DNA of 35,582 nucleotides from Gemmatimonadota bacterium (GTDB lineage Bacteria; Gemmatimonadota; Gemmatimonadetes; Gemmatimonadales; Gemmatimonadaceae). The position numbers and the translations under genes were made by a program. How positions within the stretch are numbered: the stretch's first letter is position 1; each line of letters opens with the position of its first letter. The DNA lies in assembly GCA_026387895.1 (NCBI GenBank), contig JAPLKT010000041.1, positions 1-35,582 of the forward strand, written 5' to 3'. Under the pieces are notes generated by a model. The model was given only the letters and a program-made list of their open reading frames with translations. It had not been told where the DNA came from and did not search any database. This document shows positions 3,613 to 11,437 of the stretch, in pieces.

Positions 3613-3981
3613 CTAGCCAATCCGATCGACCAGAAGGGCGCGCGACGCTGCAGGGCGAGTCGTATAGCCGGAGGTCGCCGACACCCCTTGGCTCAGCTGC
3701 CCGAGCTCACGACGGATGCTCTGCATGCGCTCGGCGATCGTCGTCAACAACGCCGCATGTGATTTGAGCGCGCGGGCGCATGCTTCGTCCACACGCTGCC
3801 GCGCCGAGGTCCCCGCTGGGATCGCCGTCGGCGAAATCGACTCAATGACAAACGCTGCCTGTTCAAGCGACAGCGACAACTGTTCATCGCTTGCTTCGGC
3901 TTCGGCACGCGCACGATCGCAGAGGTCTGCGGCTTCGTGCAGCCGCAGCGCGGCATCTTCGGCGATCACGGCGGGATTCAT
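3613..3981 (-). CDS. Small helical protein after fliS, FliT-like in position
   Basis: This 122-residue protein is predicted to be mostly alpha-helical. It is rich in Ala, Glu and Arg, with no membrane segment or signal peptide. Its start overlaps the fliS stop codon (ATGA), so the two are translationally coupled. The place directly after fliD-fliS is where fliT, the FliD chaperone, is found in many bacteria, and the size and helix content fit. I see no diagnostic FliT residues, so the assignment is by context only. The terminator lies 17 bases downstream. Confidence 0.6.
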   Translation of the reverse strand: MNPAVIAEDAALRLHEAADLCDRARAEAEASDEQLSLSLEQAAFVIESISPTAIPAGTSARQRVDEACARALKSHAALLTTIAERMQSIRRELGQLSQGVSATSGYTTRPAASRALLVDRIG

Positions 3982-7228: not shown

Positions 7229-8055
7229 TCAGCCGAGGAGCTTCAGGATTCCCTGGCCGGCCTGGTTGGCCTGGGCGAGGATCGCGGTGCCGGCCTGCGC
7301 GAGGATGTTGCTCTTGGAAAAGTTCACCATCTCATCCGCCATGTCGACGTCGCGGATCGTGCTCTCGGCGGCCGAGTAGTTCTGAACAGTGGTCTTCAGG
7401 TTCGCGACCGCGTTCTCCATGCGGCTCTGGCTGGCGCCGATGTAACCGAGGGAGGCGTTGACGCTTCCGATCGCGCTGTCCAGAGCGGTCAGGGCAGTCT
7501 GCGCGTTGGCAAGCGTGTCCACAGCGGAGCTGCCGATTCCGAGCGTGGTGGTCGACAGGTCCATCTTGGTGCCGTCCACGGCAGTGTATCGTTGCCCGTG
7601 TAGTCGCCCGAGGCGCCGACGAGGAAGGTTGCGGCGTAGGTGCCGTCGAGCAGCGACGTGCCCTGGAACTTGGTGCCGCTGACCGTGCGGTCAATCTCGG
7701 CGGCGAGCTGCGTGAACTCGTCGTTGATGCGACCGCGACCGTTGCTGTCCACCGTGTCCGACGCGGCCTGCGTGGCGAGCTCCTTCATACGCTCCAGCAT
7801 CGACTGCACCGACGAAGCGGCGCCTTCCGCAATGCTGTACACTGAGTTCGCCTGCTCCGCGTTACGCGTCGCCTGGTTGTACGAGCGGATGTCCGAGCGC
7901 AGGACGTTCGCTGTGCCAAGGCCGGCGGCGTCATCAGCCGCGCGGGTGATACGGAAGCCCGAGGACAGCTTCTGGGTGGAGGAGGCAACCGCGTTCTGCG
8001 AGTTGGTGAGGTTGCGGGCTGCCGAGAGGGCACTGACGTTCGTGTTGATGCGCAT
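7229..8055 (-). pseudogene. fliC: Flagellin FliC, interrupted by a one-base frameshift
   Basis: Flagellin is the filament subunit. The N-terminal D0/D1 part (MRINTNVSALSAARNLTNSQ, then LSSGFRITRAADDAAGL) is read from 8055. The C-terminal D1/D0 part (ASQSRMENAV, then ILAQAGTAILAQANQAGQGILKLLG) is read in a different frame and ends at 7229. The frames separate at about 7581-7595, after ASGDYTGNDT. Adding one base there joins the halves into 275 residues, a normal short-flagellin length, and restores AVDGTKMDLSTTTLGIG. As written, the first frame reads on to 7489 with Arg/Pro-rich nonsense. A sequencing or assembly error is as likely as a true mutation. The ribosome-binding site is GGGAG at 8063-8067. 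fliD and fliS follow. Confidence 0.9.
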
Positions 8056-8328: not shown

Positions 8329-8799
8329 TCACGCGATCTTCGTCACAGGAAACGATTCGCGAATGCCCCACGGACCATCACCAAGCACCAGCTGCATGCC
8401 ACGACGACGTCCATGATTTAGAAGCAACGGTCCTTGCAGATTCGCGGTGGCATGCTCGCCGGCGCGGCCAGGCAGCGTGACGATCGCGTAGACCGCGACT
8501 TCATTTGGCTGACCGGCGTCGAGACGACGCACGTCGGAATCACTGAGCTCAACGGAGTATCCCTCAAAGGCGAGGAATGGATCCACGAGCAAGAAGGCGA
8601 GCCCGGAACGATCCACCGACTGCAACCACGCCGTGCCTTGCTTGGCGCCGGTGATAAACACCCAGCGCTGGCACGACGGGAATCCTGGAATGCCCGCGGG
8701 AAAATCCACGAACGCGTCGTCGGCGACCGCGAGTGGGCCGAACAGCTCCGACTGGATCGTCGTCATGCGAGTTGAAGCATCGGACATCGTGTCGTTCAT
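8329..8799 (-). CDS. fliW: Flagellar assembly factor FliW
   Basis: FliW binds flagellin and, when flagellin is used up, binds and inhibits the translational repressor CsrA. The 156-residue protein matches the family throughout: FPAGIPGFPSCQRWVF, the WLQSVDRSGLAFLLVDPF core, the VAVYAIVTLPG strand, and ATANLQGPLLLNHGRRRGMQLVL. Its ATG overlaps the flgL stop codon (ATGA). There is no Shine-Dalgarno sequence, so translation is probably coupled to flgL. A second in-frame ATG lies four codons later. csrA, often adjacent to fliW, is absent here. Confidence 0.93.
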   Translation of the reverse strand: MNDTMSDASTRMTTIQSELFGPLAVADDAFVDFPAGIPGFPSCQRWVFITGAKQGTAWLQSVDRSGLAFLLVDPFLAFEGYSVELSDSDVRRLDAGQPNEVAVYAIVTLPGRAGEHATANLQGPLLLNHGRRRGMQLVLGDGPWGIRESFPVTKIA

Positions 8800-9698
8800 C
8801 GGAGGTAATCGGTGAGTGAGAGGTTGAGAATGCGCGACGTTGCGGCCATCGCAGCCTGATACGCGGTCTGTCGTGATGTGAGCATCGTGATCGCGGCTTC
8901 GATATCCACATCCTGCAGATTCGAGGTCGAGGCTTGGAGTTGCTGGGTGAGCGAGGTCAGGTTCGAGTCGGCGAGCTGCAACTGACTGGCGCGCGCCCCG
9001 ACTTCTCCGAGTTGGCTCTGGACTTTCGCAAACGCGCTGTGGCTGTCGCCAATGAGGGACTGCAGCGTCGTGATATCATTGGTTTGCAACGCCGCGGCCA
9101 TGTCTTGCAAGGTCTTGAGTGGCCCAGCGGTGGAGTTCCCAAAGACGGTGGCGCCATCGTGCGTCGGTGTGAGCTGTTGTCCGCTCCCGATCTGCACCGT
9201 GCGTACACCCGTCGGCTGGCCGGACACCGTAAAGGTTGCCGTCGCGCCGCCAGTATTGATGGCGAAGGGTGCCGTGCTCGACGACGTGCCACCGAACAGG
9301 TAGTCCGCGCCATCCTTCGCGTTTCCGAGATTCACGGCCTGAGCGAGCAACTGGCTCATCTCGGAACCCGCGGCATTGCGTGTGGCGGCGTCCGCCGTGT
9401 CGGTAGCCTGCGCAATCGCGAGTTCACGTGCGCGCGAGAGAATATCACCGAGTTGATTGAGGGCCGATTCTTCAAGCGTCGCGCGTGCCGTCGCCAGATT
9501 AACGTTGCGCTGATACTGCGTTACTGAGCGAAGCTGACTCTGATTCTGCATCACGGCATGGGCAGCGGCCGGATCGACCGACGCCTCGGTGAACCGCTTG
9601 CCGCTCGAAATCTGTTGCTGCGCCGCGTCGACCTGACCGCGGAGCGTGCTCAGATTCAGAACTGCGTTATCGCTGATGCTGAAGTTCGTGACACGCAT
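8796..9698 (-). CDS. flgL: Hook-filament junction protein FlgL
   Basis: FlgL (HAP3) joins the hook to the filament. The 300-residue product has the flagellin-like N-terminal helix (LSTLRGQVDAAQQQISSGKRF) followed by the FlgL-type phrase EASVDPAAAHAVMQNQSQLR. The C-terminal helix (EAAITMLTSRQTAYQAAMAA) also matches. I chose the ATG at 9698 (MRVTNFSIS, as in FlgL); an ATG at 9713 would add five residues. It is first in a two-gene operon with fliW under a sigma54 promoter. flgK, usually just upstream, is not in this window. Confidence 0.93.
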   Translation of the reverse strand: MRVTNFSISDNAVLNLSTLRGQVDAAQQQISSGKRFTEASVDPAAAHAVMQNQSQLRSVTQYQRNVNLATARATLEESALNQLGDILSRARELAIAQATDTADAATRNAAGSEMSQLLAQAVNLGNAKDGADYLFGGTSSSTAPFAINTGGATATFTVSGQPTGVRTVQIGSGQQLTPTHDGATVFGNSTAGPLKTLQDMAAALQTNDITTLQSLIGDSHSAFAKVQSQLGEVGARASQLQLADSNLTSLTQQLQASTSNLQDVDIEAAITMLTSRQTAYQAAMAATSRILNLSLTDYLR

Positions 9699-9757
9699 CG
9701 ATGGACCATCCATGAGCAGGTGTTGGCGGACAAAGCTGCCGCCTCGCGGGCTAATTG

Positions 9758-9947: not shown

Positions 9948-9975
9948 TAAAGTCTTGTGTGCCACGGGCCGACAT
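9948..9975 (+). promoter_or_regulatory. Sigma28 promoter of the unknown flagellar-linked gene pair
   Basis: TAAAGTCT is followed, after 12 bases, by GCCGACAT. The -35 box is the same octamer as in fliC P1. The -10 has two mismatches and the spacer is one base longer than ideal. The predicted start lies close to an ATG at 9983, so the mRNA may be leaderless. Confidence 0.6.
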
Positions 9976-9997
9976 ATCACTCATGGATTCCTTCACC

Positions 9998-10389
9998 ATG
10001 ACTCTCATTCGAAGCTCGAACCCCGACTTGCGTCCGCATCCGCGGCTCGTCAAGCCGGCGCCAGCCCCATCGGCGTCCGTTCGGGTATCGACCCTCGACG
10101 TTCGCGTCGGGGCCCGTGTGACAGATCATCTGACGGTGAACTATCCGGCACTTCGGGAGGCATTGCGGCAAGAATCGCCGACCAGCGGATCCTCGACGAA
10201 CTCAAGGCCCGCCTCACTAATGGAGAGGCTCCTCTTGAGGCCGTCGAGGCGGTCGCGGCGACCTACACCGCCGCCCCGTCGAAGGCACCTGGACAGGCCT
10301 CCGGACAGGCCTCCGGACAGGCCTCCGGACAGGCTTCAGGCCAGCCCGCGAGCCCGTCCACTGGTCCTCAGCTTCGGCTCACCAAGTGA
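9998..10389 (+). pseudogene. Unknown sigma28-linked protein, frameshifted, with GQAS repeats
   Basis: I do not recognise this protein. Coding-like sequence starts at MTLIRSSNPDLRPHP (ATG 9998, or 9983 with five more residues). It runs in one frame to about 10,170 (YPALREALRQ), then continues in the next frame (RIADQRILDELKARL) to a stop at 10389. One added base in the CAAGAA stretch near 10,170 would give about 130 residues. The result would have a basic, proline-rich head, a helical middle (about residues 45-85), and a tail with four GQAS repeats encoded by a 12-base tandem repeat. A real mutation or a sequencing error are both possible. The promoter and the neighbouring flgM imply a late flagellar role. 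Confidence 0.55.
10291..10338 (+). repeat. 12-base tandem repeat, four units
   Basis: GGACAGGCCTCC is repeated four times (the last copy as GGACAGGCTTCA) and encodes GQAS units. The length is a multiple of three, so copy-number change would keep the frame. Confidence 0.9.
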
Positions 10390-10751
10390 AACTGTATCGC
10401 CGACAGGCTCCGCCGGGCACTCGCTGGGGGGGCCTCGTCCTCCTCGCGACACTGGCGGATGGCCCCATGCCTGGCCCCATGCCTGAGGCGATGGCCGCTG
10501 GCTCAAAGGGGGCTGCACCGACCAACTCCGCACCTGAGCAGCCGAGCTGGTCCGTAGCTGACATGATCGCATTGGCCACCACTCAGGTGGACCGCCAACC
10601 CGCCATGCTGCGGGCGGCGCGCGCACGTGCCTCGAGCATCCGCGATCACGCCGCTGTTTCGCTGACCTCCGGACCCCTGGGTGGTTCAGGTACCCCCACA
10701 TCCGGACATTCTGGCGCGAAAAATGCAGTACCGTTCGAAGTGCGTTACTAG
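10386..10751 (+). CDS. Unknown 121-residue protein coupled to the preceding gene
   Basis: I do not recognise this protein. It starts with a GTG that overlaps the previous stop codon (GTGA), which indicates translational coupling. Residues 12-25 (TRWGGLVLLATLADG) form a short hydrophobic stretch after Arg/Lys, possibly a weak signal or anchor. A GPMPGPMP repeat follows. The middle (about residues 55-90: VADMIALATTQVDRQPAMLR) looks helical, and the tail is Gly/Ser-rich. It sits 113 bases before flgM. A flagellar role is inferred from position only. Confidence 0.6.
   Translation: MKLYRRQAPPGTRWGGLVLLATLADGPMPGPMPEAMAAGSKGAAPTNSAPEQPSWSVADMIALATTQVDRQPAMLRAARARASSIRDHAAVSLTSGPLGGSGTPTSGHSGAKNAVPFEVRY
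10461..10484 (+). repeat. 12-base direct repeat, two units
   Basis: GGCCCCATGCCT occurs twice in a row, encoding the GPMPGPMP segment of the unknown 121-residue protein. Confidence 0.85.
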
Positions 10752-10812
10752 GATCTCGGCCTGACCGTCAGCCTGAGCAGCCGTTGCTGATTAGCCGGTG
10801 CTGAGCAGTCGC

Positions 10813-10839
10813 TAAAGTATTTTCGCTCGCTGTCGATAT
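10813..10839 (+). promoter_or_regulatory. Sigma28 promoter of flgM
   Basis: TAAAGTAT, 11 bases, GTCGATAT: a near-consensus sigma28 promoter with exact spacing. Its start near 10,847 is just before the AGGAGG ribosome-binding site (10849-10854). flgM would thus be made by the sigma factor it inhibits, a negative feedback loop known from enteric bacteria. Confidence 0.85.
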
Positions 10840-10864
10840 TGCTCGTACAGGAGGAAACATCGAA

Positions 10865-11191
10865 ATGAAGATTGGAAACATCGGAACGCCGGCGTCCAAA
10901 CTCGCCACCACCACCGTCAACCGCGACTCGGCCAAGCCGACCGCGTCGTCGGTGTCGTCCCCCGTTACGACCTCGCGTGCTCCAAAGCGCGATGCCGTAA
11001 CGCTTTCGGCCGAAGGGCTCGCCATGTCCAAGAGCGATGGCGCGAACACCGCGAGCGCCGCGAGCGCCGCGAGCGCCGCGAGCGCCGCACGCTTAGCGGA
11101 GATTCGCCAGCGGGTGAACCAAAAGGCATACGACTCGGCCGAAGTGCTGGATTCGGTCGCTCGCGCGATCCTGAAGTCCGGCGACCTGTAG
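10865..11191 (+). CDS. flgM: Anti-sigma28 factor FlgM
   Basis: FlgM holds sigma28 (FliA) inactive until the hook is complete and is then exported. The 108-residue protein has the family layout: MKIGNI start, a disordered linker, the DAVTLSAEG motif at about residues 43-51, and a C-terminal sigma-binding part (LAEIRQRVNQKAYDSAEVLDSVARAIL). The linker contains ASAASAASAASAA, encoded by four copies of a 9-base repeat. The ATG has an excellent AGGAGG site ten bases upstream. A 56-codon ORF and a terminator follow. Confidence 0.9.
   Translation: MKIGNIGTPASKLATTTVNRDSAKPTASSVSSPVTTSRAPKRDAVTLSAEGLAMSKSDGANTASAASAASAASAARLAEIRQRVNQKAYDSAEVLDSVARAILKSGDL
11051..11086 (+). repeat. 9-base tandem repeat inside flgM, four units
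   Basis: GCGAGCGCC is repeated four times without change, encoding the Ala/Ser linker of FlgM. The unit is a multiple of three, so slippage would alter linker length without breaking the gene. Confidence 0.92.
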
Positions 11192-11227
11192 TCGTCGTCC
11201 CATCTCCTCAGCCCCACAGAGATTCCC

Positions 11228-11398
11228 ATGACGCCAGCACGAATCGAAGAGATCCTCTATAACTCCGAAGTCGCGCTGCGCGCCGTGGACCTTGAAGTCT
11301 CGACCCTTCGGGCAATGCCGAACCGAGATGGCGGAGCAGGAAGCACCTCGCTGGCCTGGGGCACGGACGCCTCGACGGGATCGGCAGCCGAGGGCTGA
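11228..11398 (+). CDS. Unknown 56-residue protein downstream of flgM
   Basis: The ORF begins MTPARIEEILYNSEVALRAV and continues DLEVSTLRAMPNRDGGAG, ending just before a strong terminator. The first 30 residues would form an amphipathic helix; the rest is Gly/Ser/Ala-rich. There is a CACAGAGATTCCC stretch but no strong ribosome-binding site. It lies 36 bases after flgM in the same transcript. The position would suit a FlgN-like chaperone, but the protein is too short and shows no family signature. It may simply be a small unknown flagellar protein. Confidence 0.5.
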   Translation: MTPARIEEILYNSEVALRAVDLEVSTLRAMPNRDGGAGSTSLAWGTDASTGSAAEG

Positions 11399-11407
11399 GG
11401 AACCAAA

Positions 11408-11437
11408 GAGCGCCACCCGGATGGGTGGCGCTCCCTT
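11408..11437 (+). terminator. Intrinsic terminator of the flgM operon
   Basis: GAGCGCCACCC (11408-11418) and GGGTGGCGCTC (11423-11433) form a perfect 11-base-pair stem with a GGAT loop, followed by CCTTTT. It separates the flagellar cluster from the translation operon. Confidence 0.92.

Follow-up and report, generated by a model that had tools for sequence, protein, structure and literature searches.

What the short reading frames around the anti-sigma28 gene flgM of a Gemmatimonadaceae genome encode is the question raised by this locus: an undescribed late-flagellar system, as a sequence-only reading had suggested, or a familiar operon in disguise. The window, i.e., the whole 35,582-nucleotide stretch of DNA that was analysed, comes from a draft genome of 2.85 Mb in 154 contigs that is 96% complete (G000, contig C70). 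It was compared foremost with a sister genome, the uncultured Gemmatimonadetes bacterium isolate Kiruna2_bin-2303 (G015, listed as 100% complete; locus L001, the same as L031, on CAIRYG010000011.1), to which it is 89–93% identical in the regions compared. The draft state of the genomes limits all claims of absence made below; G015 is nearly complete.

The promoter, the two unnamed upstream ORFs with their GTGA overlap, the 56-codon ORF and the strong terminator all lie where that reading had placed them, and the sequence confirms the order promoter, ORF1, ORF2, flgM, ORF4 and terminator. The features are as follows.

8329–8799, minus strand: fliW, a neighbour in the divergent unit (PF02623, 1.4e-32)
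8796–9713, minus strand: flgL, the divergent neighbour (TIGR02550, 3.4e-58), arranged likewise in relatives of the genus
9948–9974, plus strand: sigma28-like promoter of ORF1, TAAAG-N-GCCGA
9983–10389, plus strand: ORF1, broken, with the frame of 9983 holding the N-terminal part and another frame the C-terminal core
10386–10751, plus strand: ORF2, 121 residues, with a GTG start that overlaps the ORF1 stop (GTGA, 10386–10389)
10813–10838, plus strand: second sigma28-like promoter, directly 5' of flgM, TAAAGTATTTTCGCTCGCTGTCGATA
10865–11191, plus strand: flgM (anti-sigma28), recognised via its orthologues
11228–11398, plus strand: ORF4, 56 residues, a stand-alone CheZ N-terminal helix, with neither cheY nor the CheZ core present
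11408–11433, plus strand: intrinsic terminator hairpin (-25.5 kcal/mol, z -6.2)

Synteny among the relatives gives the order flgL(-) / ORF1-ORF2-flgM-cheY-cheZ(+), which is the ancestral one. The group in the window is this known operon in altered form, a flgM-cheY-cheZ set with cheZ cut to its N-terminal helix. To call it an undescribed system was an overstatement: in other genera a single ORF2-related protein occupies the place upstream of flgM, and the genes around it are those of the usual flgM-cheY-cheZ set.

flgM and its sigma28-like promoters

Searched alone, the FlgM of the window has no match in Pfam or NCBIfam, and the Pfam FlgM model finds nothing in the genome; the Pfam models for FlgM and CheZ are too insensitive for this phylum. 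Its orthologues match PF04316 in seven of eight cases (best 1.1e-7), and their profile matches the FlgM structures 9wsf (2.6e-4) and 1rp3 (2.6e-3) in the PDB, so the earlier assignment is right and the gene at 10865–11191 is, by homology, flgM. It shares with the family the DxVxxS motif, the C-terminal RxRxxxxAYDSxxVxDxVA helices and a sigma28-like promoter, and differs from it in falling below Pfam detection by itself and in carrying a 36-bp in-frame repeat insertion. The in-frame AlaSerAla repeat units at 11048–11083 are missing from the sister.

A scan with the pattern T[AC]AAG-N(13-16)-G[CT]CGA locates two sites within the flgM gene group (9948 and 10813) and one before fliC (8161–8136, minus strand), where chance would give 0.25–0.5 matches per whole relative locus and 1.35 per whole window. 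Both sites of the group recur in the loci L031–L035. The element before ORF1 is kept at the same place in all six ORF1-bearing genomes of the genus (the window and L031–L035), in agreement with the proposal that the first gene has its own promoter, and a site before flgM is present in most other genera as well, in most relatives at the same position. These elements at conserved positions point to membership of the group in the sigma28 regulon. As flgM has a sigma28-like promoter of its own, the four genes need not share one transcript from the ORF1 promoter; judging from the elements, sigma28 would transcribe ORF1-ORF2 and flgM separately. The fliC site resembles that of ORF1, which makes the suggested co-regulation with fliC plausible, whereas the accompanying idea of new filament or export genes fails for the 56-residue ORF (see below). 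At the other end of the group, the terminator has no substitution relative to the sister in 42 aligned bases.

The first start codon of ORF1, ATG at 9983 (the alternative is 9998), lies 7 nucleotides from the -10 element. The N-terminal SF..L.R pattern conserved in the ORF1 family favours this start, from which a leaderless mRNA would be expected.

The proteins upstream of flgM

In the window, ORF1 is frameshifted by a 37-bp deletion at 10181/10182 that cuts the conserved core near its C-terminus (F...L...L.....R....E..HL..V..VA..Y; family alignment A5). The deletion is missing from the sister, where ORF1 is intact and has 122 residues, and the 130-residue protein read from the window thus does not exist in this assembly. 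Likewise, fliC (ORFs 7489–8055 and 7229–7579, minus strand) is split at 7579, where it lacks 1 bp that the sister has; decay, phase change and assembly error are the alternatives. There is about an even chance that both frameshifts are errors of the draft assembly and that the genome otherwise resembles its sister: the assembly is in 154 pieces, in fliC the difference is one C next to a second C, and the sister is intact. Against this, the ORF1 change amounts to 37 bp, and the flanking conserved coding regions compared with the sister hold no other frameshift, the 5-kb region, with fliD in it, being otherwise free of them. With both ORF1 and fliC frameshifted, the whole locus could be decaying. 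In the tail of ORF1, at about 10290–10345, there are also in-frame GlyGlnAlaSer repeat units that are missing from the sister.

Six genomes of the genus carry the ORF1-ORF2 pair, as do three other genera (g13, g25 and g33), and wherever the locus was read the pair adjoins flgM; its conservation there thus spans four genera of the family. The conservation beside flgM on which the sequence-only reading had staked these frames is thus found: in the relatives the pair lies between divergent flgL and flgM, with the stop codon of ORF1 and the start codon of ORF2 adjacent or coupled. Relative to the sister, ORF2 has many indels, which are in frame as a set and all lie outside an identical core, and its dN/dS is 0.088. 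The core helices span approximately residues 57–93 (family alignment A1), where AlphaFold2 places helices at 57–70 and 72–93 with pLDDT of about 75–81; the two single-sequence models made for these proteins have pLDDT of 60 and 40, too poor for fold searches.

Both proteins are as unfamiliar as had been supposed, with only chance-level matches in Pfam, NCBIfam and the PDB and, for ORF2, no convincing family among the PHROGs. A single-sequence search with ORF2 matched the sister genome alone, so that synteny and profiles were needed to find its relatives. A literature search returned no description of ORF1 or ORF2 beside flgM in Gemmatimonas. Their conservation and the conserved sigma28-like promoter support the view that ORF1 and ORF2 are real, undescribed proteins kept beside flgM; with them, the late flagellar repertoire of Gemmatimonadaceae gains two uncharacterised protein families. 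In genus g13 (L109, L111 and L114), an ORF of about 60 residues upstream of ORF1 (MNIQALLG...DVVELSVEGK...) resembles the N-terminal half of FlgM and lacks the C-terminal helices.

In other genera of the family, the gene directly 5' of flgM encodes a protein that has, like ORF2, the core F..LL.DAL.EL and the C-terminal end LD[VI][RT]. A profile of seven such proteins (G025, G032, G033, G035, G038, G040 and G047) matches the ORF2 profile with an HHalign probability of 73% (E 3.2e-5), compared with at most 2.3% for ORF1, FlgN, FliT, FlgM and CheZ. The best E value among 100 column shuffles run against ORF2 as a control was 0.44; column shuffling destroys helical periodicity, and the evidence for homology is accordingly moderate rather than strong. 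On these profiles, ORF2 is probably the version found here of a protein that neighbours flgM across the family; elsewhere it is encoded by a single gene, in many cases extended by a further helical part at the N-terminus, and in the window it belongs to a coupled pair. In two loci (L016 1001–1342 and L020 1044–1385, oriented coordinates; G031 and G058), the flgM-upstream gene resembles a second, diverged FliS.

Among the known proteins closest in character are the export chaperones FliT and FlgN (PF05400 and PF05130), which are small helical proteins, as ORF1 and ORF2 are predicted to be, and which likewise adjoin late flagellar genes and have similar C-terminal tails. True membership of ORF1 and ORF2 in the FliT/FlgN family, diverged beyond profile recognition, as distinct from a similar way of working, is nevertheless doubtful. 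The slot is shared with FliT/FlgN-like genes of other genera, one of which reaches PF05130 at E 0.071, both proteins are predicted to be helical, and LDxR-type tails are held in common. The direct comparisons, however, are negative: with FlgN and FliT profiles drawn from the same set of genomes, the HHalign probability is at most 0.9%, and no significant similarity appears to PF05130, PF05400 or the local FlgN and FliT. In addition, the genome encodes a canonical FlgN on another contig (G000:C113), on account of which we rejected ORF1 or ORF2 as the missing FlgN, and a FliT-like gene at 3613–3981 of the window (sub-threshold PF05400). Apart from the question of family, ORF1 and ORF2 are probably late flagellar, chaperone-like helical proteins.

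A stand-alone CheZ N-terminal helix

Nearly all relatives have, after flgM, cheY and then a gene for a protein of about 230 residues, of which the full-length CheZ in L032 scores 34.4 bits against the Pfam CheZ cut-off of 30.7. A profile of the N-termini of 18 of these proteins, with the window and sister left out, picks ORF4 out of 1648 ORFs at E 3.5e-7; the unrelated ORF that comes next has E 1.9. The 56-residue ORF, previously taken for a new filament or export gene, is by profile and by its position after flgM the N-terminal helix of CheZ (PF04344), and we rejected it as a new gene. In an alignment of full-length CheZ (A3), the window genome and the sister match model positions 1–30 only. 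Unlike CheZ, ORF4 ends before the four-helix core with its catalytic QFQDxTxQ motif and also lacks the C-terminal CheY-binding helix. An A3 search returned no CheZ core elsewhere in the window genome or the sister; the same search returned complete or core CheZ in the controls G006, G173 and G029. The converse arrangement, CheZ copies without the N-terminal helix, is seen at G006:C22:297791-298327 and G029:C6:81610-82173, and G006 has a full-length CheZ as well.

Relative to the sister, ORF4 has five synonymous substitutions and one nonsynonymous (dN/dS 0.07), and under neutrality five or more synonymous changes out of six would have a probability of 0.007–0.013, depending on transition bias. 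Substitutions are also less frequent in ORF4 than in the downstream non-coding DNA (3.5% versus 11%; Fisher P 0.0024). The pattern favours a translated, constrained peptide, on the small numbers of six substitutions and two genomes. ORF4 might instead be a functionless remnant of cheZ that decays after a recent deletion and has been kept by chance, in keeping with the loss of cheY and the CheZ core, with the 1-bp fliC frameshift and 37-bp ORF1 deletion in the same genome, and with the restriction of this form to two genomes. We regard this as unlikely, given the concentration of changes at synonymous sites (P about 0.01), their scarcity relative to flanking DNA (P 0.0024) and the frame, stop codon and terminator that are intact in both genomes. 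Moreover, stand-alone CheZ N-helices also lie 3' of flgM in G029, G154 and G155, whether or not cheY intervenes. G029 has a separate gene for the CheZ core at another place, while in G154 and G155 no CheZ core was found, no cheY separates flgM from the helix, and CheW-domain proteins are present. Our literature search returned no description of stand-alone CheZ N-helices.

What such a helix might do is suggested by the CheZ of Azorhizobium, in which the N-terminal helical region of residues 1–70 suffices for polar localisation, whereas residues 1–50 do not, and localisation is independent of CheA and of the flagellar motor proteins tested (PMC7750401). The function of the corresponding E. coli helix is described there as unknown. 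We tentatively propose that the CheZ N-terminal helix could be a flagellar module in its own right whose job does not involve CheY, either polar or flagellar docking or a link to the flgM/sigma28 checkpoint. Loss or relocation of the phosphatase would then have left it as a separate gene more than once, namely in the non-chemotactic lineage of the window genome and its sister, in the split CheZ of G029 and in the short protein of G154 and G155. As the 1–50 fragment failed to localise and 1–70 was needed, a 30-residue helix may be too short for docking of the Azorhizobium kind.

Flagellar genes in a lineage without chemotaxis

The loss of the phosphatase does not stand by itself. The flgM locus has lost cheY in both the window genome and its sister, and neither G000 nor G015 encodes a detectable CheW-domain protein (CheA/CheW), of which each of 12 other flagellate relatives has 3–7. 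Six relatives have the CheY-binding motif, LSQxxIDxLL or a near variant of it, at the N-terminus of FliM, which is degenerate in G035; in G000 and G015 (L139 2792–3808 and L141) the LSQxxID motif is replaced by a low-complexity Ala/Ser/Pro stretch, which agrees independently with the losses of chemotaxis genes. The flagellar contig of G000 retains FliM, FliN, FlhA, FlgK and a FliA-like sigma factor and, as judged by eye, MotA/MotB-like ORFs and other basal-body and hook genes. By gene content, then, this lineage has lost chemotaxis and kept its flagellar genes. Directly after the FliA-like sigma gene (L139 12137–12517) there is a 126-residue ORF that matches no Pfam family.

Taken together, the observations are rather well explained if this is the late, sigma28-class flgM group of the Gemmatimonadaceae, carried by a lineage that has lost chemotaxis, a reading that we hold with fair though limited confidence. 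In this explanation, sigma28 would switch on ORF1-ORF2 and flgM late in flagellar assembly. ORF2, perhaps with ORF1, would act as a chaperone or adaptor for late substrates, being of the small helical working type of FliT and FlgN, and would occupy the slot that one ORF2-related protein fills in other genera. The CheZ helix may be a docking element that has outlived its phosphatase, kept because of a job that does not need CheY; by analogy with Azorhizobium, this would most likely be docking or localisation at the flagellated pole. Counting against the explanation, the functions of ORF1, ORF2 and the helix are all inferred, and the step from Azorhizobium to the window lineage is an extrapolation.

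That ORF1 and ORF2 form a new late-flagellar system, for filament, export or checkpoint, acting directly on FlgM or FliA is improbable: the position beside flgM and the sigma28-like promoter are conserved, neither protein has a known family, and the ORF1 core, among the families first tried, best resembles the C-terminal helices of FlgM, but gene position alone does not demonstrate interaction, ORF1 is broken in the window, and in most other genera the ORF2-like gene stands alone, with no recognised ORF1. The resemblance to FlgM is negligible (probability 1.2%, E 0.046), and ORF1 was rejected as a FlgM paralogue.

With this gene group, the CheZ N-terminal helix is naturally separated from its phosphatase, with no cheY at the locus, no CheW-domain proteins detected, the FliM docking peptide gone and flagellar genes kept. 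Since the carriers have flagellar genes and lack chemotaxis, the separation offers a clean test of the role of the helix. It also documents a loss of chemotaxis with the flagellar genes kept, in a genus where flagellin is found in seven of 18 genomes and is undetectable in the other 11, and the window lineage may thus be an intermediate of stepwise loss. We note that many of the flagellin-less genomes of this genus (G001, G002, G005, G007 and G010–G014) encode CheW-domain proteins, which suggests a non-flagellar chemosensory system.
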